This document shows, one piece after another, positions 7,066 through 15,484 of a stretch of 64,000 bases of DNA. Position numbers and translations under genes: made by a program. The stretch spans positions 1 through 64,000 of the forward strand of contig BQML01000018.1 of the NCBI GenBank assembly GCA_022180565.1, given 5' to 3'. This DNA comes from Bacteroidia bacterium (GTDB lineage: Bacteria > Bacteroidota > Ignavibacteria > UBA10030). The notes under the pieces were generated by a model. That model had not been told where the DNA came from and searched no databases. It was given only the letters and a program-made list of their open reading frames with translations. Positions within the stretch are counted from its first letter, which is position 1, and every line of letters begins with the position of its first letter.

Positions 7066-8199
7066 CTAATCCATTCTTCCCCAAAGATCTGCGGCCTCAC
7101 TGAGGAGCATCATTTTCGCCCGCTCAACGTGAGGGGCAACCGAACATGCCGTACTCAAAATGAAACCTCCTCCTGCTTTGCCCACTTCAATTCTCGATTT
7201 CAGGTCGTCGAGAATCTCCTGCGGCCCTTTCTTCAGGAGCGTGTTGACGGAATCCACGTTCCCCTTGATGAACGCCCGTCCCCGCAAACGCCACTTGGCA
7301 TCCTCCAACTCCACGTCGCCGAGAGGCGGCGGATCCAAACACTCCAATCCCTTGATGCCGGATTCCAGCATGAGTTCCAACCTGTCTCCAATGGATCCGC
7401 ATGTATGCAGATAGGCAGGTATGCCTTCCCTCTGGATTGCCTGCACGACGGGCGTTTCGTACGGCAGAACGAACTCCCGGTACATTGCCGGCGAGATGAA
7501 GCCTGCACCCGCGAACGGCGAGGAGATCTTCACTGCGTCGACATCTTCTCTGCTCATGTCTCCGGCAAGAGCGGTGACGAGAGCCGCGAACCTCGAGAGA
7601 ATCCTCCGCGCCTCGTTCGGAAATTCGAGGAGGCCGATCAGCCCCTGCTCAAGGCCGACAAAATCGAGGTAATAGTCAAACGGCGAGGTCACTTCCCCGT
7701 GAATGGAAATCTCCTCTCCAACGTTCCTCCGAAGGACACCGAAGATGCCCAGCCGGTTTGATTCATGAATGCGGAAGCGCAGACCCTGGGAGACAGGTAT
7801 GTATTCAAGACGCTCGGGCAGATCGGCATCATTCAACTCTGCAAGCGTCACCGCGGGAACCGTTGGCAACAATGAATGCGGAAGGTCGTCCGTGGGGTAC
7901 CCCAAAGAATCACCGTTACGCCAACGGACGATTTCCTCGCCTTCAACGATCCTGCGCTCGCTAAGCTGATCCTTCCAGTCCGGGTCGTGCCCATGAAGAC
8001 TGACGAGGATACCGTCGAACTGGTACCGTTCCCTGAGGCGGACGAGACCTTCGACAAAGGTTGCCTCGTCGTGCCAGAAATCCACCGGGGAGACGCCGAG
8101 TTGTACCAGCATGTGTCCGATGCTCAACTGAGCCATCACGGGAACGCGGTCGGGAACGCCGAGACTCATGGCCGTACGGATACGTTCCCTCGGGGTCAT
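7066..8199 (-). CDS. Uroporphyrinogen decarboxylase family protein (MtaA/CmuA-like)
   Basis: The 377-residue protein has the URO-D fold of the group that includes corrinoid methyltransferases such as MtaA. Visible blocks are TPRERIRTAMSLGVPDRVPV, ISSPFAGAGFISPAMYREFVLPY, PAYLHTCGSIGDRLELMLESGIKGLECLDPP and FIKGNVDSVNTLL. The HTCG motif is the zinc or substrate loop typical of methyltransferase members, so it is probably not HemE of heme synthesis. I chose the ATG at 8199 because GGAGAGG stands 10 bases before it; an ATG at 8217 is an alternative. It is the last gene of a leftward run led by the Rrf2 gene. No corrinoid protein is encoded nearby, so the methyl donor is unknown. Confidence 0.85.
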   Translation of the reverse strand: MTPRERIRTAMSLGVPDRVPVMAQLSIGHMLVQLGVSPVDFWHDEATFVEGLVRLRERYQFDGILVSLHGHDPDWKDQLSERRIVEGEEIVRWRNGDSLGYPTDDLPHSLLPTVPAVTLAELNDADLPERLEYIPVSQGLRFRIHESNRLGIFGVLRRNVGEEISIHGEVTSPFDYYLDFVGLEQGLIGLLEFPNEARRILSRFAALVTALAGDMSREDVDAVKISSPFAGAGFISPAMYREFVLPYETPVVQAIQREGIPAYLHTCGSIGDRLELMLESGIKGLECLDPPPLGDVELEDAKWRLRGRAFIKGNVDSVNTLLKKGPQEILDDLKSRIEVGKAGGGFILSTACSVAPHVERAKMMLLSEAADLWGRMD

Positions 8200-8203
8200 G
8201 GAT

Positions 8204-9001
8204 TCAGCCCTCTCCATAGGCGATGCCGAGAAGAAAGCCGTAGACCAGGGATTGCGCCAGAAGGAGGAAGCCGAGGTTGCGGAAGCGGACCGTTGGGGAA
8301 AGCTTCACGGTGCCCATGAGCGCATGGACACTCATGGGGACAAAGGCAACAAGAGTAAGCGCCGGCGTGTAGTGTGTGGCCACAAAAACGGAGACGACAA
8401 CGATCACAAATACGTGGTACACGAGATTGAGCGCTCCAAGTCCCATTCGTTGACGCAAGTCGATGTGCACCTTCCTTAAAGCGGCGGCTCTGAGCTTCAT
8501 GTGTACATAGATGACCCCCGAGCCGAAAAACAGCACGTGGAGGATCCAGACAAAAACCGTATCCATGCTCAAGGAATTATTCAGAACATACCCCGCCGAG
8601 GGTCCTGTCATGGTCAGTCCAATCACCGCCCAGAGATCGGCTCCGACAGACTTCGGCTTTCCTCGAACGAGGCTGACGCTTACAAAAAAGCAACCCGCGG
8701 CGAGAGCCGCGATGGGTATCAAGAGGAGGAAGCCGCGAACAAGCAAGGGTACGCCGAAGACTATCCCTGCCACAATGTAGACGCCCGCCCAGAACCGGCT
8801 ACGCTGATCTCCCGATCGGCCGCGGAGCATTGTTTGGAGAGGATAGTATGCCAGGAAGAAGCTCATGGCCGAGGCCATGAGAAGAAGCAAATCTGTTGTG
8901 ACATGTTCTGCGATGAATACAGAAACAGTCACGGGGACCAGGAGCACCGCCCAGGCTCCATGCTCTTTGGGGATTACAGCACTGCCGAATCTACCCATCA
9001 T
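8204..9001 (-). CDS. YwiC-like membrane protein
   Basis: The 265-residue protein begins with the YwiC-like signature PKEHGAWAVLL and has about eight hydrophobic segments over its whole length. The family is found in many bacteria, often near anaerobic respiration or nitrate and nitric oxide genes (ywiC of Bacillus lies beside narGHJI and fnr), but no activity is known. It starts 39 bases after the DUF6448 gene and ends 4 bases before the chosen start of the UroD-like gene, so it is part of the same transcript. The neighbourhood (Rrf2, ScdA) fits a role under nitrosative or low-oxygen conditions, as inference. Confidence 0.85.
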   Translation of the reverse strand: MMGRFGSAVIPKEHGAWAVLLVPVTVSVFIAEHVTTDLLLLMASAMSFFLAYYPLQTMLRGRSGDQRSRFWAGVYIVAGIVFGVPLLVRGFLLLIPIAALAAGCFFVSVSLVRGKPKSVGADLWAVIGLTMTGPSAGYVLNNSLSMDTVFVWILHVLFFGSGVIYVHMKLRAAALRKVHIDLRQRMGLGALNLVYHVFVIVVVSVFVATHYTPALTLVAFVPMSVHALMGTVKLSPTVRFRNLGFLLLAQSLVYGFLLGIAYGEG

Positions 9002-9040
9002 CGGCTTCCGTTCCTATCGGCATCTCAAACGCATTGACAT

Positions 9041-9661
9041 CTATGGAACGTGCTGCTCGTGATCGCGGTCTCCAGAGGCGCCCCCGGCCTGCTTGTGTCC
9101 TTTTGCACCAGCCGCTTGGAAGAGCCTCTCTGCATAGTGTAAGAATTCTACGTAGGCGGCAACATAGGCTCTTCCCGAATTCACGCTCGCGTCGGCCTCC
9201 TTCTTTGTTTCGACGACACGGTCAAAGCGGGTCTTCAATCCCGACTCCAGAATTCCATGCAGTCCCTTCATCAGCGCCTTCAGGTCTCCGGATTCCAGAG
9301 CCTTGTCCGCTTCCTCCACTCCGGGTTCAAAGGGGACATCCGCCGACCGAAGACCTGTGTAGGGCGCTCCCTCGCTTGCGCGATGAATCCGCACAAGGGT
9401 TTCAAAGAAATACCTGTCTGCAAGCTCTCTTGCGACGCCACCGGTGCGTCGTACCTCAAGCGTCTTTCGAAAGGCTTCGCGGATTTCCCGCTCATCCTGG
9501 GGGCGGACCCACCTCAGAACAAGAGTCACGTCGCCTTTTTCGAGAGCTTGCCGGGCGGCAGCCACCACGGGGCCTTTCATCGAATCACAATGGGCCGCAG
9601 CGAATTCGGTGGACAACAAAGTGCAAGACAGAACGAATATGCCTAAGAAAAGTTGTTTCAT
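9041..9661 (-). CDS. DUF6448 family exported protein
   Basis: This 206-residue protein has a signal peptide (KQLFLGIFVLSCTLLSTEFAAAHC) whose cleavage near AAAHC would leave HCDSMKGPVV, the conserved start of DUF6448 proteins. The VTLVLRWVRPQDEREIREAF and YFFETLVRIHR blocks also fit that family. The end is His- and Gly-rich (GHKQAGGASGDRDHEQH), which might bind metal. The function is unknown. I chose the ATG at 9661, which has GGGAG 9 bases upstream; a GTG at 9679 overlapping the ScdA stop is an alternative. It follows scdA directly and is presumably periplasmic. Confidence 0.82.
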   Translation of the reverse strand: MKQLFLGIFVLSCTLLSTEFAAAHCDSMKGPVVAAARQALEKGDVTLVLRWVRPQDEREIREAFRKTLEVRRTGGVARELADRYFFETLVRIHRASEGAPYTGLRSADVPFEPGVEEADKALESGDLKALMKGLHGILESGLKTRFDRVVETKKEADASVNSGRAYVAAYVEFLHYAERLFQAAGAKGHKQAGGASGDRDHEQHVP

Positions 9662-9675
9662 TGCGTGTTTCTCCC

Positions 9676-10410
9676 TCACGATCGTGGTGCTGTCAGTTCC
9701 TGCTCCAGTGCCATTGCCTTTGGAAACAGAATGTTATTCTCAAGGTGCACATGCCGGTGCAGGTCTTCCTCGAACAATTGAAGTTCCCTGAAGCTGATTC
9801 TGTAGGTGGTGCAGGCGTCGTCAGGAGGTGTATAATTGGCGGTCAGTGATCGTATCGCTTCCATTTCATCCCCCGCTGCCTTGTGCTCCATTTCCATCAT
9901 GCGGATGGGGTTTTGCACTCCGCCAAAGGGAGATTCCTCTAGGGGGGTACCGTTGCGTTTTGCTTTGACCAACTCCAGAATGTAGGGGAACAACACATGC
10001 TCCTCCTTCATCATATGAGCCGCCATATCCTTTGCGACGGCATTGAAATGACGGGCGACTTCAACGACCTCCGGATGCCTTTCCCCGTGCACAGCGGCAA
10101 CCTTCTGAGTGTGGGTCAACAGCACCGGAATCGCTTCTCGGACATACTCGTGATGCACACGAACAATGTAGTTAATCAACTCATCAGACGGCCAAGCGGA
10201 GAAGGTTGGGGCCTGATCTCCCGTCTTTTGATCGAGCTCCTGCAGGCCGGCATACACGAGTGCGGGATCGAGTCCCTTCTTTGAACAGGCCTGCTCTATG
10301 GTTACCCCTCCACCACAGCAGAAATCCAGCGAGAATTTCTCGAACACTGCGGCAGCGCGGAAATCGTCTGTGACGATGGACTTGAGCGTAGCATTCTTGT
10401 ATCGATCCAT
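9676..10410 (-). CDS. scdA: Iron-sulfur cluster repair di-iron protein (RIC)
   Basis: This 244-residue protein is of the ScdA/YtfE type, which helps repair iron-sulfur clusters damaged by nitric oxide or oxidants and carries a hemerythrin-like di-iron site. The N-terminal ScdA domain has the DFCCGGG motif near residues 28-34. The following hemerythrin domain shows the expected His/Glu ligands: VRVHHEYV, GERHPEVVEVARHF, HMMKEEHVLFPY, MEMEHKAAGDEM and HVHLENNILFP. It is cytoplasmic. It lies in the operon headed by an Rrf2 regulator with an NsrR-like cysteine pattern, which strongly suggests control by nitric oxide or cluster status. The next gene, DUF6448, begins 14 bases later. Confidence 0.95.
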   Translation of the reverse strand: MDRYKNATLKSIVTDDFRAAAVFEKFSLDFCCGGGVTIEQACSKKGLDPALVYAGLQELDQKTGDQAPTFSAWPSDELINYIVRVHHEYVREAIPVLLTHTQKVAAVHGERHPEVVEVARHFNAVAKDMAAHMMKEEHVLFPYILELVKAKRNGTPLEESPFGGVQNPIRMMEMEHKAAGDEMEAIRSLTANYTPPDDACTTYRISFRELQLFEEDLHRHVHLENNILFPKAMALEQELTAPRS

Positions 10411-10427: not shown

Positions 10428-10441
10428 GGTTATGGGTTATG
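10428..10441. repeat. Tandem GGTTATG repeat between scdA and the methyltransferase gene
   Basis: Two exact GGTTATG units are followed by GGTT and a T run. The repeat covers the methyltransferase stop at 10437-10439 and the short gap before scdA. Confidence 0.5.
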
Positions 10442-11255
10442 GGTTTTTTTGTTTCTTGAGTCTTTCGTTTTCAGTCTTCTCGGACGGTCTGTTTGCCAGA
10501 ACGACGAGATCCTTCGATTCCAGAGGTATGAACTCGGAGAGGGCGATGCTGCCGAACGTTCTGATCTCCGAAAACCCAACAGCCACAAGCGTGTCCTGAA
10601 GTTCATTGCACAGCACCGGACGAAGGCGGACGCTTCTTGTCTTTTGACGGACAATTCCGTTCTCACGCTGAATGGTGAGAATGTTGAAGATTACATGGTT
10701 TCCTTCGAAATCGTAAAAACGGACAAACGTCGTGTCTCTGTTTTCCTTGACGCTCTGCACTCGTTGCCTCTGCGCAAGAATTCTCTCGTAGTTCAGATTC
10801 TGCAGAAACAATAATCCCCCGGGCCTCGTGCAGGCGAAGAACTGTTCCAGCGTTTCTCGCAAATCCTCCCCGGTTTCCAGGTGGGCCAGCGAGTTTCCCA
10901 AACTGAGGACAAGGTCGAACTGCCGTTGGAGCGTAGCATGAAGGGACTGGAACGGTGTCTCCACGAATTCGATGTTTACGTTCATTTCTCTTGCATGGTG
11001 TTTTGCTTCGCGGAGCATGGCCGGGGAAACATCGATTGCAGTCACCGCAACGCCGAGTTGTGCCAACAACAGAGCGTGGAACCCCGTTCCGGTGCCCGCG
11101 TCGAGGGCGGTGTGCAGGCCGTATTTTTCGACGAGCATCCGGAAGAAAGGTCGTTCGTGTACGAACCGTTTTGGAAAACTTGTCATCAAGTCGTACTCCC
11201 CGGCCAAATCGTCGTAGAAATCACGGACCGGGTCAATGTTTACGGCTTCAGTCAT
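10437..11255 (-). CDS. Class I SAM-dependent methyltransferase
   Basis: A 272-residue protein with the class I methyltransferase fold. Motif I is ALDAGTGTGFHALLLAQLG, followed by the acidic VTAIDVSPAML and FDLVLSLGNSLAHL. The FYDDLAGEYDLMT start is common in small-molecule methyltransferases. The ATG at 11255 overlaps the end of the polyferredoxin gene by 8 bases; a longer frame upstream has no similarity. Its substrate is not evident. It lies between a membrane iron-sulfur protein and scdA in the Rrf2-led operon. The last dozen residues (KTENERLKKQKNP) fall in low-complexity sequence. Confidence 0.85.
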   Translation of the reverse strand: MTEAVNIDPVRDFYDDLAGEYDLMTSFPKRFVHERPFFRMLVEKYGLHTALDAGTGTGFHALLLAQLGVAVTAIDVSPAMLREAKHHAREMNVNIEFVETPFQSLHATLQRQFDLVLSLGNSLAHLETGEDLRETLEQFFACTRPGGLLFLQNLNYERILAQRQRVQSVKENRDTTFVRFYDFEGNHVIFNILTIQRENGIVRQKTRSVRLRPVLCNELQDTLVAVGFSEIRTFGSIALSEFIPLESKDLVVLANRPSEKTENERLKKQKNP

Positions 11256-12450
11256 GAGGCGTGTACTCCGGCACATTTCCGCGAAAATGCTGATAGACGG
11301 GCTTGTCAAGCTCTTGAAAGCGTCTTTGATACTCCTGCCTCGTTATCCCGTTTTGCCAGTATCCGCTCAGCATGGCGAGTCCGGTGATCCCTACGAACAA
11401 ACCGGCGACCAGGGCGCCGAAAACCCAGGACGGAACAGGACGGGCGGTCCTTCGCGAAGCGCTCATGACAAGCGTGTTTTTCACGGGACAGGCTTCGACG
11501 CACTGCAGACAGCTCATGCATTCGTCGCTCCAGACCCTTCCGGCCCTGTGCACGTTGATCGACGACGGACACGCCTTGGTGCACAGCTCGCAGTCGATGC
11601 ATGTGGACTTGTTGCGCGTGATCTTGAAGGGGCTCAGGAAGCTGAGGAAACCGAGAAGGGCGCCGTAGGGGCACAGGTAACGGCACCAGAAATTCTTGAT
11701 GATCACCGAACCAAACATCAGCATCAGAATGGTCCACAGGGCGAACGTGGAGATGTCGGCAAAGAAGAGATACATCTTGATATCCGCCACTTTGTTGTAT
11801 GGACTGTAGATGAAACGGCGGAGGGAGAAGACATCCATGGTCACGATGGAATAGACAAAATAGAGGAGCAGGAGGTATTTAAGGGATCGAAGGGGATAAT
11901 CGAGCCATCGGGGAACTCTCACATTCTTTCCAAACACCCTTTGACCGAAGAGCCAGAGCGCTTCGCTCAGAGTTCCGATGGGACACAGCCAGCTGCAAAA
12001 GGCCTTCTTCAGAAGAATGCTGACGCCGACAATGGCCAGAAAAATAAAGATTGATGCAGGATGGATGTTGTTCACGATGCCCGTTTGGATCCAGTACGAA
12101 AGGCTCATGAGAGCACTGATGGGAAGGAATCCTTCGACGCCGGGAGGGCGTGTGACAAAAGGCTCCGAGCCGTGAGACATCCCCCATTTCACAAAGAGAT
12201 GAAATTCGTACCCGATCCAAAGACAGAGCAGGATGAACGTGAACTGAATTGTAGAGCGGAGGAACTGCGAATCCTCTTTTAACCTCCACACGAGCCGCTT
12301 GTACCAGGACGGCTCAAGCGAGAAGTTTGGCTTTCGTCTCCGCAATTCCGGAGGAATCTTTTTGATTCTCCTCAGCGGTCGATCAACACCGGCGGTTCGC
12401 TGTTGCGCTACGAGATCCATTTCAGATATTCTTCTCTGATTTGTGTTCAA
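11248..12450 (-). CDS. Membrane-bound 4Fe-4S protein (NapH/CcoG-like polyferredoxin)
   Basis: A 400-residue integral membrane protein. It has about five hydrophobic segments, two Cys pairs at membrane ends (CSWLCPIGTLSEALW and CRYLCPYGALLGFL) and two ferredoxin-type clusters (CIDCELCTKACP and CMSCLQCVEACP). A last membrane segment follows near residue 345. This is the build of NapH, NosR-like and CcoG proteins, which pass electrons across or along the inner membrane. The N-terminus is basic and cytoplasmic. It is the second gene after the Rrf2 regulator, with 6 bases between them. A role in reducing an enzyme of nitrogen-oxide metabolism or in cluster repair is possible, but its partner is not identified here. 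Confidence 0.88.
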   Translation of the reverse strand: MNTNQRRISEMDLVAQQRTAGVDRPLRRIKKIPPELRRRKPNFSLEPSWYKRLVWRLKEDSQFLRSTIQFTFILLCLWIGYEFHLFVKWGMSHGSEPFVTRPPGVEGFLPISALMSLSYWIQTGIVNNIHPASIFIFLAIVGVSILLKKAFCSWLCPIGTLSEALWLFGQRVFGKNVRVPRWLDYPLRSLKYLLLLYFVYSIVTMDVFSLRRFIYSPYNKVADIKMYLFFADISTFALWTILMLMFGSVIIKNFWCRYLCPYGALLGFLSFLSPFKITRNKSTCIDCELCTKACPSSINVHRAGRVWSDECMSCLQCVEACPVKNTLVMSASRRTARPVPSWVFGALVAGLFVGITGLAMLSGYWQNGITRQEYQRRFQELDKPVYQHFRGNVPEYTPHD

Positions 12451-12456
12451 AAAAAA

Positions 12457-12885
12457 TCAAACATATTCTGGCTTCCGCATTTCTCTGGCAACCTGGGCGA
12501 TGTTCTTACTAACCAGCATGGAGTAGATTCCGTCTCTTAGACCCGCCCATTTTTCATGCACGGCACAGGGGTTCTGTCCGGAACACTCCGGAAAGCCGAG
12601 AACACAATTCTTCGTGAATCCGACTCCATCAACGGCCTCGACAACATGGAACAGGGTTATATCCTTTGCCGGCATGGCGAGCCTGAATCCCCCCGTTGGT
12701 CCTTTTTGTGAGGCCAGCAATCCCTTGTAACTGAGATCCTGGAGAATCTTGCCCAAGAAGTGATACGGGATCCCCAACTTCTTCGCAAGTTCCTTAATGG
12801 AGGTCATCTCTCCTTCAGGTTTGAGGGCCAGGTACGTTACCGCCTGAAGTGCGTATTCACATTGTCGGCTAAAGATAAGGCTCAT
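12457..12885 (-). CDS. Rrf2 family transcriptional regulator, NsrR-like
   Basis: The 142-residue protein has the Rrf2 winged helix (CEYALQAVTYLALKPEGE, IKELAKKLGIPYHFLGKILQDL, GLLASQKGPTGGFRLAMP). Three cysteines at residues 94, 101 and 107 (CVLGFPECSGQNPC) match the spacing seen in members that bind an iron-sulfur cluster and sense nitric oxide (NsrR) or cluster status (IscR). It heads a leftward operon with a polyferredoxin, a methyltransferase and scdA. A perfect inverted repeat lies between -35 and -10 of its own promoter (12912-12931), so it probably represses its own operon. Which signal it senses cannot be told from sequence alone. Confidence 0.92.
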   Translation of the reverse strand: MSLIFSRQCEYALQAVTYLALKPEGEMTSIKELAKKLGIPYHFLGKILQDLSYKGLLASQKGPTGGFRLAMPAKDITLFHVVEAVDGVGFTKNCVLGFPECSGQNPCAVHEKWAGLRDGIYSMLVSKNIAQVAREMRKPEYV

Positions 12886-12904
12886 ATTCAGAGTTCTTTA
12901 TCCT

Positions 12905-12933
12905 AAATTAGGACAATAAACAGTTATTGTCAA
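12905..12933 (-). promoter_or_regulatory. Promoter and operator of the Rrf2-led operon
   Basis: On the minus strand TTGACA (12933-12928) and TAATTT (12910-12905) are 17 bases apart. The perfect dyad GACAATAAACAGTTATTGTC (12912-12931) covers most of the -35 box and spacer. A second dyad, TCCTAAATTAGGA (12901-12913), covers the -10. A protein bound here would block polymerase, which fits autorepression by the Rrf2 protein. Confidence 0.8.
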
Positions 12934-12950: not shown

Positions 12951-13598
12951 TCACCGAATATAATCTGCCCCGGGAAGATGCTCAGCAGACCATGTTTTCC
13001 AAGAGAGAATCCCTGCGGCCACCCAGACAAGGGGAATGATACCAAGGAGAAATGCCCCCGCCTCAGGTCCGCTCCGGATCGCGACATGCGCAACATTGAT
13101 TTCTCCCAGAAGCGGCGGCGTGAAAGGATCGACCCGAATTGTGGCAAAGGGGTTAAGGGAGTGGCCGTAAGACGACAACGTGGAGTGGAAACTCCACAGC
13201 GCAAACAGGCCCAGATACACAGCCAGGACAAACAAGTCAATCAATCGGGACATTGTTCCCAGCACCATAGTTCTCAGAGCCAGGATGAAGCATACTCCCA
13301 GAAGAAAGGGCAACCAACGAAACTGCGCAATCTCCTCAGGCTCGACGGGTCTCATGCCCAGGTAATGATTGAGCGCGTTGATTTCGAGAAGGTCCCCAGG
13401 CTTTCCCTCCTCTAACGTGTGCGAATAAATCCTCAGCACCAATCCGCCGGGATATCGTTCGGATCGAAACTCGATCTGCCAGAGCGGGAGCGCAAAGACG
13501 GGGAAGAAGAGCAGGGCTCCCACAAAGATGATGAGGCGGCTGCGAAGGTCAAGAGGGATTTGAAAGAACTCCGTCGTTTTGATGATCACGCGTTGCAT
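12951..13598 (-). CDS. Unknown membrane protein, 215 residues
   Basis: I do not recognise a named family. There are about five hydrophobic segments: near residues 22-45, 95-115, 120-140 and 185-205, with one more likely. The first loop is periplasm-sized and contains YSHTLEEGKPGDLLEINALNHYLGM. The His and acidic residues there could bind metal. Similar small membrane proteins occur near nitrous oxide or copper genes, but I would not name it on that basis. It starts 15 bases after the hemerythrin gene and is the last gene of the long leftward nifJ operon. No terminator is visible before the Rrf2 operator 18 bases downstream. Confidence 0.7.
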   Translation of the reverse strand: MQRVIIKTTEFFQIPLDLRSRLIIFVGALLFFPVFALPLWQIEFRSERYPGGLVLRIYSHTLEEGKPGDLLEINALNHYLGMRPVEPEEIAQFRWLPFLLGVCFILALRTMVLGTMSRLIDLFVLAVYLGLFALWSFHSTLSSYGHSLNPFATIRVDPFTPPLLGEINVAHVAIRSGPEAGAFLLGIIPLVWVAAGILSWKTWSAEHLPGADYIR

Positions 13599-13613
13599 AA
13601 TGGCCTCCGGATG

Positions 13614-14129
13614 TCAGGATGCCTTGTTGATCGCCTCTAAAAGAGCCTGGCGCTGATTGTTGGTGAGAAGTTGACGAATAGCCGGGTAGAGAATCGTGTC
13701 CTCCCTCCGAATGTGCGTTCTCATGAGATCCACGATCATTTCCGCGATGGAGACAACATTTCTGATCGATGTACCGTGCAATCGGCCTTCTTCCACCTCT
13801 TTCACGGCTGTCAGCAGGTCCGAGAATGCGTCCCACAAATCCCTGTGCTCACCCTTCACCTGCTCCGCAAGCGATTTCATATGCGACTCTACGAGGGGAA
13901 AGACAAGGCGCTCCTCGATCTCTGTGTGTTTACGTACTTCCGTATTCATCCAGCGGATGATGGCTGCAATTTGCTCAAACGCTTCGGGAGAGAAGCCATT
14001 GACCCGGATGGATTCCGCGGCCTGCTCCAGCATGCTCAGCTGATGCATTCCCTTTTCATGGTCCTGGAGCAGGATGTCGATCGGATGCTGCGGGGTCTTT
14101 CTCTTTCCTGATCGTGCGAGAGACTTCAT
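13614..14129 (-). CDS. Hemerythrin-like domain protein
   Basis: A 171-residue four-helix protein with the hemerythrin-like ligand pattern: LLQDHEKGMHQL, VRKHTEIEERLVFPLVE, VKGEHRDLWDAF and MRTHIRREDTILYPAIRQLL. It would hold a non-heme di-iron site that may bind oxygen or nitric oxide, in the cytoplasm. The ATG at 14129 overlaps the stop of the 2-oxoacid oxidoreductase beta/gamma gene by ATGA, so it is translated with that enzyme. These oxidoreductases carry oxygen-sensitive clusters, so an oxygen-scavenging or sensing partner would make sense (inference). The N-terminal 20 residues are basic. Confidence 0.88.
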   Translation of the reverse strand: MKSLARSGKRKTPQHPIDILLQDHEKGMHQLSMLEQAAESIRVNGFSPEAFEQIAAIIRWMNTEVRKHTEIEERLVFPLVESHMKSLAEQVKGEHRDLWDAFSDLLTAVKEVEEGRLHGTSIRNVVSIAEMIVDLMRTHIRREDTILYPAIRQLLTNNQRQALLEAINKAS

Positions 14130-15484
14130 AATGCCGCCTCGCTCTGAAGTTGTTGAACCCCCCATCTCACCTTTTCGGCCGGTGCTTCACCAAACGCGTC
14201 CTGAACAGCCTCAACACAATCAGAGACCGACGCAAACCGGTCTCGAACTGCAAGCGTCATAAGAAATCCCAGCGCCGCCCATTCAGGTCCAAACACTTCG
14301 CGAAGCGGAAGGTGACGGACGCGCCCGCTGAAGTGGTCGCACGGCAGTGACTTATCCACGAAGACCTCCGCGGTTTCCCCGGCCTTCGCCCTCCATCCGG
14401 AGACAACTGCCTCACGCCATCCATCTGCCGAGAGAATTCCAAGAACGTCGGGCTGTTCAATGCCCGTATACAAGATCGGAGAAGGCCCGATCTTGACCTC
14501 CGACAGGGAGAAACCGGAGCCCTGAGTGACCGGATTGTCATTCTTCTGCGTCACGTGGTACCCCATTCCCAGCATCAACTCGGAAAACACTGCTGTCGAT
14601 GATTGCACGCGTTCACCTGCGCTCCCGGCGACAACGATTCCCAGCTCCTTCCGGAGGGGATGTGCAGGAGTTTGGACAGCTCTGATCGTCCTCCCAGGCC
14701 TCAGGTCCCTTTTTCCGTTCAACGGACGGATCCGGTTGTGGTAGGGTTGTCTGTCTGTTCGCGCAACGATTGTGCCCAACTCCCAGCCTTGACGCCGCGC
14801 CAGCTCTTTCAGGGCAGAGCCGATCATGGCATTGTGCCTGGACGCGTACTCGGTGCAAAGCTCCAGAATCTCGACCAGGGCGAAGTTAGGCGTTGCGATG
14901 GCTTCCTGCAGGGTGGCCGACAACGCCCGGTCGGTCGCCAGGTGACGCGCAACGAAGGGAGCATGACTGTTCTTCAGGATCCCGCACAGGTCCATCGGGG
15001 GAACGACATTGCCCTCGGGCGTCGTTGCCGTCACAAGACCCTCCGGCGTCAGAGAAGATCCCTGCCCTCCCGTCATCCCGTAAACAAAGTTATTGCCGAC
15101 CAGCACGGTCACATCCACGTTCAGCATCGCCGCGTGCACAAGGTGCTGAAGTCCGATCATGGCGCCCCCATCTCCAATCAGAACAATCGTTTTCAACCTT
15201 CGCTCGGAGAGGACGGAATCTGCGAGAGCAATGCCGGTTGCGAACGCTGTGGAACGTCCATGAGTCGTGTGAACCGTATGAATCGTTGGAAAGAGGGAAT
15301 CGGCGAGGCCGATACAGCCGATGTCGGTGACCAGAACAACGTCCCGCGCCGGTAGGCGCAGTGCACGGAGGGCCTCATCCAGCCTCCGGAGAACGTGGGA
15401 GTGGCCGCATCCTTTGCAGAACGGGAACACCGCGTTCGGGGCAAGATAGGTCTCACTGGCGAGATTGTCCGTCGATGCGGTCAT
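14126..15484 (-). CDS. 2-oxoacid:ferredoxin oxidoreductase, fused beta and gamma subunits
   Basis: The 452-residue protein is a fusion. Residues 1 to about 245 are the thiamine diphosphate-binding beta subunit: FCKGCGHSHVLRRL, VTDIGCIGLADSLF, VLIGDGGAMIGLQHLVHA with the GDGG cofactor motif, and NNFVYGMTGGQ. From about residue 285, RKELGIVVAGSAGERVQSSTAV begins a gamma-type domain that normally is a separate protein of about 180 residues. Together with the alpha subunit upstream, which overlaps by ATGA, it would oxidise a 2-oxoacid and CoA to acyl-CoA with reduced ferredoxin. The substrate is not clear. The GMTGG loop is normal, and the gamma glycine motif is altered from GxGGQG to GSAGERV. 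Confidence 0.87.
   Translation of the reverse strand: MTASTDNLASETYLAPNAVFPFCKGCGHSHVLRRLDEALRALRLPARDVVLVTDIGCIGLADSLFPTIHTVHTTHGRSTAFATGIALADSVLSERRLKTIVLIGDGGAMIGLQHLVHAAMLNVDVTVLVGNNFVYGMTGGQGSSLTPEGLVTATTPEGNVVPPMDLCGILKNSHAPFVARHLATDRALSATLQEAIATPNFALVEILELCTEYASRHNAMIGSALKELARRQGWELGTIVARTDRQPYHNRIRPLNGKRDLRPGRTIRAVQTPAHPLRKELGIVVAGSAGERVQSSTAVFSELMLGMGYHVTQKNDNPVTQGSGFSLSEVKIGPSPILYTGIEQPDVLGILSADGWREAVVSGWRAKAGETAEVFVDKSLPCDHFSGRVRHLPLREVFGPEWAALGFLMTLAVRDRFASVSDCVEAVQDAFGEAPAEKVRWGVQQLQSEAAL

Follow-up and report, generated by a model that had tools for sequence, protein, structure and literature searches.

We describe two copies of one conserved 20-bp motif on either side of the gene for an Rrf2-family regulator, found in a stretch of DNA of 64,000 nucleotides (hereafter the window). 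The first copy, O1, lies at the rrf2 promoter, while the second, O2, lies behind the rrf2 stop codon and is preceded, at a fixed distance, by an A/T tract (Table 1). We propose that Rrf2 represses its own promoter at O1 and that, when bound to O2, it blocks elongating RNA polymerase; reasoning from sequence and from analogy with known roadblocks, we put the probability of this account as a whole at about one half.

Table 1. Features of the rrf2 region, in order of decreasing position in the window
Feature	Position	Strand	Basis or remark
-35 box TTGACA of the rrf2 promoter	12928..12933	minus	42 aligned rows keep a TTGAC block at operator positions -27..-23
20-base dyad GACAATAAACAGTTATTGTC	12912..12931		perfect 8-bp arms around a 4-nt loop; exists in the window but is not kept by relatives; probably chance
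13-base dyad TCCTAAATTAGGA	12901..12913		6-bp arms around a single central base; exists in the window, but relatives do not keep it as a dyad; overlaps O1 at one end
-10 box TAATTT	12905..12910	minus	TAWWTT kept at -4..+1 of the operator
O1 TTAGGATAAAGAACTCTGAA	12887..12906	minus	1 nt before the rrf2 ATG; family consensus TTMRGAYnnnnnnRTCYGAW
rrf2, Rrf2-family regulator, 142 aa, C-x6-C-x5-C-x2-H	12457..12885	minus	PF02082; NCBIfam superfamily
T8 tract	12449..12456	minus	directly after the rrf2 stop codon; ends with a T at O2 position -9, 12 nt ahead of the O2 core
O2 ATCAGAGAAGAATATCTGAA	12421..12440	minus	second motif copy, behind the rrf2 stop codon; touches the ATG (12420) of the NapH-like gene that follows
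NapH-like 4Fe-4S membrane protein, first gene after O2	11248..12420	minus	domain scans
SAM-dependent methyltransferase	10437..11309	minus	domain scans
RIC/ScdA iron-sulfur cluster repair di-iron protein	9676..10410	minus	TIGR03652 252.6 bits, cut-off 204.7

The rrf2 gene leads a co-directional row that continues with genes for NapH-like, methyltransferase, RIC/ScdA, DUF6448, YwiC-like and URO-D-like proteins, and scdA/ric, which the preliminary description of this DNA had linked to the regulator, is indeed the third gene after rrf2. The open reading frame list starts the NapH-like gene at a TTG at 12450, the end of the T tract; the ATG follows at 12420. The DUF6448, YwiC-like and MtaA/URO-D-like genes after RIC occupy positions 7066-9679, and DUF6448 or YwiC recurs beside the motif at four other loci (L068, L071, L074 and L154). 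Adjoining rrf2 on its upstream side, positions 12951-14165 encode, in the same orientation, a family-less membrane protein and a hemerythrin-like protein.

The window protein is a clear member of the Rrf2 family (PF02082, 108.3 bits against a cut-off of 30, E 4.2e-31; TIGR00738, 106.3 bits against 73.3). In the NCBIfam scan the superfamily alone scored above its cut-off, with the NsrR and IscR equivalog models at 53.9 versus 182 bits and 62.5 versus 207.55 bits, respectively; we therefore file it as an Rrf2 protein working like NsrR and not as NsrR. Its best sequence match among solved structures is of the IscR type. The three cysteines that had been noted earlier are present, but their spacing is not the NsrR-like one then suggested: it is x6,x5, as against the x5,x5 given for Streptomyces coelicolor NsrR (Cys-93/99/105) in the accessible part of PMC4432287. 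The arrangement C-x6-C-x5-C-x2-H recurs in 48 of 49 near relatives, the exception being truncated by a contig end, and in all 32 far relatives, and the window protein probably carries an Fe-S cluster on C-x6-C-x5-C(-x2-H). The window's genome also encodes a paralogous Rrf2 (L002, contig 42 of G000; 47% identical), which has its own operator copy at 13412-13431, followed by genes for a cytochrome c and a nitrate-reductase-like protein.

For the comparison of upstream regions we collected Rrf2 relatives by a protein search of 100 related genomes, 98 of which gave a match, and added 68 loci from named genome contigs, mainly of Ignavibacteria and other Bacteroidota. Among the resulting 78 distinct upstream regions, 44 contain the 20-bp motif at more than 12 bits, compared with a 99th percentile of 8.0 bits and a maximum of 13.8 bits in shuffled regions; the GA and TC of the motif are invariant in the 42 aligned rows. 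In the window O1 sits between the -10 box and the start codon. The -35 and -10 boxes are 17 bp apart and do not appear in the list of a promoter-prediction tool, the rules of which are stricter. On this alignment O1 is an ordinary autorepression operator, and it is very probable that O1 and O2 are both operators of the window Rrf2, which would be the protein that binds them.

A second, far sample came from an Rrf2 search of 296 genomes of the phylum, 270 of which gave a match; 40 regions retrieved and 30 others yielded, with L089-L105 included, 86 rows that have downstream sequence. Here O1 is followed by TAnnTTTG, the consensus of the Bacteroidota -7 box (PMC9723704, consulted in part), in 24 of 27 rows, mostly about 17 nt past the core, as counted on a list of 37 far loci picked by eye. 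The single autoregulatory site is thus found in two promoter layouts: about 17 nt upstream of TAnnTTTG in distant Bacteroidota (L089-L103 and L163-L232, upstream of rrf2), and between the -10 box and the ATG in Ignavibacteria.

O2 is nearly as widespread as O1. We compared 56 distinct loci, namely those with an Rrf2 at least 50% identical and with enough flank, excluding L078 and L104 (contig ends) and matches starting after residue 6. O1 is present in 39 and O2 in 38 of them: 33 loci have both sites, five have O2 only, six O1 only and 12 neither. The distance between the two sites in the window is 466 bp. By its sequence signals O2 is a regulator site in a transcribed region that has no promoter there: when scored with O1's own -35/-10 columns, 0/38 O2 rows reach O1's lower quartile, and TAnnTTTG follows O2 in 0/37 of the far loci picked by eye. 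Moreover, in all eight Kryptoniota-like rows O2 comes 10 nt after the first ATG, which would place O2 inside the coding sequence, although later in-frame GTG or TTG codons in several of these rows leave some doubt.

These observations bear directly on the alternative in which a second promoter, weak or of an unusual kind, stands just before the downstream genes, with O2 as its operator and the A/T tract as one of its parts. O2 is often close to the next ATG, as O1 is in Ignavibacteria, and in two Flavobacterium-like genomes tract and operator stand just upstream of the -7 box of a nirK-like gene; furthermore, the signals sought at O2 were the O1-type -35/-10 pair and TAnnTTTG, and not those of alternative sigma factors. 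Nevertheless, we reject the ordinary form of this alternative on the missing promoter signals and on the ATG positions, since with an ATG that precedes O2 in eight rows, and touches it in others, transcription would have no space in which to start beyond the operator. We consider a second promoter unlikely, though a rival to be taken seriously.

The A/T tract is what suggests that RNA polymerase would be halted at O2, because it stands upstream of the site at a fixed distance. Position -9 is a T in 36/38 O2 rows and position -8 a G in 28/38; in the eight rows with the next ATG at -10, the letters at -9 and -8 belong to that start codon, and the T5 tract ends two bases earlier (peak at -14). 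The distance from tract end to core is exactly 12 nt in 20/38 near rows and in 20/38 far rows, the latter being the 38 of 86 in which the best core matched at 7 or 8 of its 8 letters, compared with shuffle means of 0.44 and 0.61 and a maximum of 4; since the rows are related, these counts overstate independence (27 single-linkage clusters at 65%, 8 of which have the -12 tract). In four more far rows this distance is 11 or 13 nt; the tracts of the far sample read AAAAATTT, TTTTTTT and similar. The same -12 register is thus seen in Ignavibacteria and in distant Bacteroidota, whatever the distance to the stop codon, which ranges from 19 to 28 nt (stop to core) in the near rows with the tract at -12. 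The best T column reaches 36/38 when rows are aligned on the site versus 29/37 when they are aligned on the stop codon, and at L053 T8-N8-O2 is found as a complete unit about 400 nt past the rrf2 stop, directly before another ATG. As judged from these alignments, the tract belongs to the operator and not to the stop codon.

Other properties of the tract set limits to its reading. The T5 run is missing in 6/38 O2 rows, and the tracts of distant rows are often AnTn instead of T-only. No consistent hairpin precedes the tract in the 38 O2 rows, and we therefore reject an ordinary hairpin terminator. A pattern composed of tract and operator matched 47 times in 296 genomes versus 42 times in the reversed control; with no genome-wide enrichment, its use as an element at many genes is not supported. 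In one Bacteroidota genome (L263 and L264) tract and operator occur three more times, each time before a DUF2249-like gene the ATG of which lies inside the operator; two of the three directly follow a ferredoxin gene.

It is also conceivable that O2 acts as an auxiliary operator, looping with O1 or storing repressor, and that the tract serves to bend the DNA or to lengthen the stretch contacted by Rrf2. The joint presence of both sites in 33/56 loci and the AnTn tracts of distant rows would agree with such a role. An extended contact, however, would predict a tract at O1 as well, and none is found there in the aligned O1 rows, near or far; the five loci with O2 but no O1 also speak against this role, as does L053, where O2 lies some 400 nt further on together with its tract. 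We regard this reading as improbable, though likewise a rival to be taken seriously.

The preliminary description had placed the operators elsewhere, in two dyads that overlap the -35/-10 pair and adjoin O1. Both exist in the window, and their perfect arms over the -35 box, spacer and -10 box, together with rates of just 0.023 and 0.034 for such 8+8 and 6+1+6 dyads in shuffles of the AT-rich 80-bp intergenic stretch alone, speak in their favour. Similar dyads are, however, common across the window at large (31 perfect dyads with 8-bp arms and loops of 0-20, against 18-42 in ten dinucleotide shuffles; 35 dyads of the 6+1+6 type, against 14-26). The arms of the 20-base dyad are fully complementary in the window only, with a mean of 2.24/8 pairs in the other 41 aligned promoters (n=42), and the 13-mer averages 2.9/6 pairs; the closest relative, with a 92% identical Rrf2 protein, has no 20-base dyad in its upstream region, and the promoter spacer in which that dyad lies carries almost no information in the 42 aligned rows. 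Absence upstream of orthologous genes, which the preliminary description had itself named as refutation, is what the aligned promoters show. A scan of the genome with up to three mismatches found the 20-base dyad at seven places including itself, versus two for the reversed control, and no further good copy. The 13-mer shares only its TTAGGA end with O1. We conclude that the two dyads are probably chance, and give almost no credence to their being operators, a reading that we reject on non-conservation, chance frequency and the genome scan. What stands of the earlier interpretation is a presumed, probably Fe-S, autoregulator of the Rrf2 family leading a ScdA/RIC row, with a real operator at its promoter; the operators it proposed do not, nor, by the tests applied here, does the NsrR label.

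Where else the motif occurs informs us about the likely signal. In strict form it has 41 matches in 33 of the 100 related genomes and none in the reversed control, and by comparison of positions 23 of the 41 adjoin an Rrf2 gene. Elsewhere it is found at a NapH-like/methyltransferase pair without rrf2 (L146), at a divergent NO reductase gene norB (L147), at genes for a cytochrome c and a NarG-like protein (L149; called NarG-like by resemblance to L002, its own Pfam scan being empty), at DUF6448 and RIC (L154) and at a molybdopterin oxidoreductase gene (L156). The matches L151 (CopD-like) and L162 (CHRD domain) are ambiguous. Three strict matches resemble chance or coding sequence (L133, L137 and L161). 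Three more (L134, L135 and L139) seem to lie in the coding sequence of LGQNYPNPFNP, which we take to be the type IX secretion signal and which is a source of false positives for the motif. Our inspection of the 41 left out five without a locus (G046:C10, G087:C78, G059, G035 and G062). In the far sample the next gene after O2 has a RIC signature in 13 of 24 loci, drawn from the 37 picked by eye; the gene behind the two Flavobacterium-like sites is, as we read its sequence, presumably nirK. Within the window's own genome the 20-base consensus, when one mismatch is allowed, has 66 matches versus 35 for the reversed control, many of them GC-rich, and a sequence-model scan lists O1 as its one match (E 1.98).

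By position, then, the motif lies near genes of the NsrR type of nitrogen-oxide defence (RIC, norB and nar genes), and judging from these neighbours an NsrR-like function is likely. This points to nitrogen oxides as the signal, with iron or redox as possible alternatives. Because the motif is found near nar, norB, scdA/ric and nirK-like genes, and because C-x6-C-x5-C-x2-H is near-invariant, the protein is likely a nitrogen-oxide-responsive Fe-S repressor.

We propose the following sequence of events. Rrf2 would bind O1 and repress its own promoter, and would lose its affinity for DNA upon encountering nitric oxide or related species. It would also bind O2, the second copy of the motif, located behind the rrf2 stop codon and ahead of the next gene's start, and there halt RNA polymerase that has already transcribed rrf2. 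The end of the halted transcript would lie in a weak A/U hybrid at the tract, so that the complex would backtrack or be released; the NapH-like, methyltransferase and RIC genes would stay off while some regulator is still made, and under nitrogen-oxide stress O1 and O2 would open together. The five loci that keep O2 without O1 speak for the whole account, and the 12/56 loci with neither site and the O2 rows without a T5 run speak against it. The elongation block in particular has to contend with the nirK-like sites, where the tract goes with a promoter operator, as well as with the AnTn tracts, the lack of a hairpin and the lack of composite enrichment.

Several consequences follow. A chance dyad has been replaced by an operator that can be footprinted, a nitrogen-oxide regulon now has its motif in a phylum that is both large and little studied, and the fixed geometry of tract and operator makes a specific prediction on transcription elongation. 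If O2 does act as a roadblock, Bacteroidota would long have had a means of regulating termination that needs no RNA hairpin. Our literature search, which is weak evidence of absence with most subscription journals outside it, found no description of the operator or of the tract-operator composite; roadblock repressors and the RNA polymerase I roadblock/T-rich terminator, on the other hand, are already known.

Among the relatives of the regulator, IscR has the arrangement C..C..C-x2-H, and the window Rrf2 shares this layout; unlike IscR, it falls below the IscR cut-off and its gene has no adjoining isc/suf genes. NsrR, as described in the available portions of PMC1274295 and PMC4432287, is an Rrf2-family repressor that targets ytfE/dnrN (RIC), norB and nir genes and is autoregulated. 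With it the window protein has in common the Rrf2 fold family, three cysteines, similar targets and, as proposed, autoregulation. Unlike NsrR, a [4Fe-4S] nitric-oxide repressor, it has the x6,x5 spacing with a following His, and its operator is GAY-N6-RTC and not the published NsrR box gATGyAT-N5-ATrCATc (PMC1274295, in part).

Repression by roadblock, in which a regulator binds the DNA downstream of the start site and transcription past this regulator is lowered, is described for LacI, PurR, GalR, CcpA and CodY (PMC4132739 and PMC10310618, in the parts consulted). O2, where a block is so far deduced, differs in that it sits at the junction after the regulator's own gene and, across many lineages of a single phylum, is accompanied by a conserved A/T tract whose distance from it is fixed. 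In the RNA polymerase I terminator, which combines a Reb1/Nsi1/TTF1 site with a T-rich element, the enzyme pauses within T-rich sequence while still 15 bp short of the site of the protein, and a hairpin is needed for release (PMC12366685, in part). At O2 the protein site is likewise preceded by a T-rich stretch, here 12 nt from the core; unlike the Pol I system, the O2 unit is without a consistent hairpin, bacterial, inside an operon and presumably signal-controlled. We tentatively suggest, while holding the odds to be somewhat against it, that many Bacteroidota lineages may use for nitrogen-oxide defence a signal-dependent, hairpin-independent terminator, made of an Fe-S repressor bound after its own gene and an A/T release tract at a fixed 12 nt, a device that in bacteria would correspond to the roadblock/T-rich terminator of Pol I.
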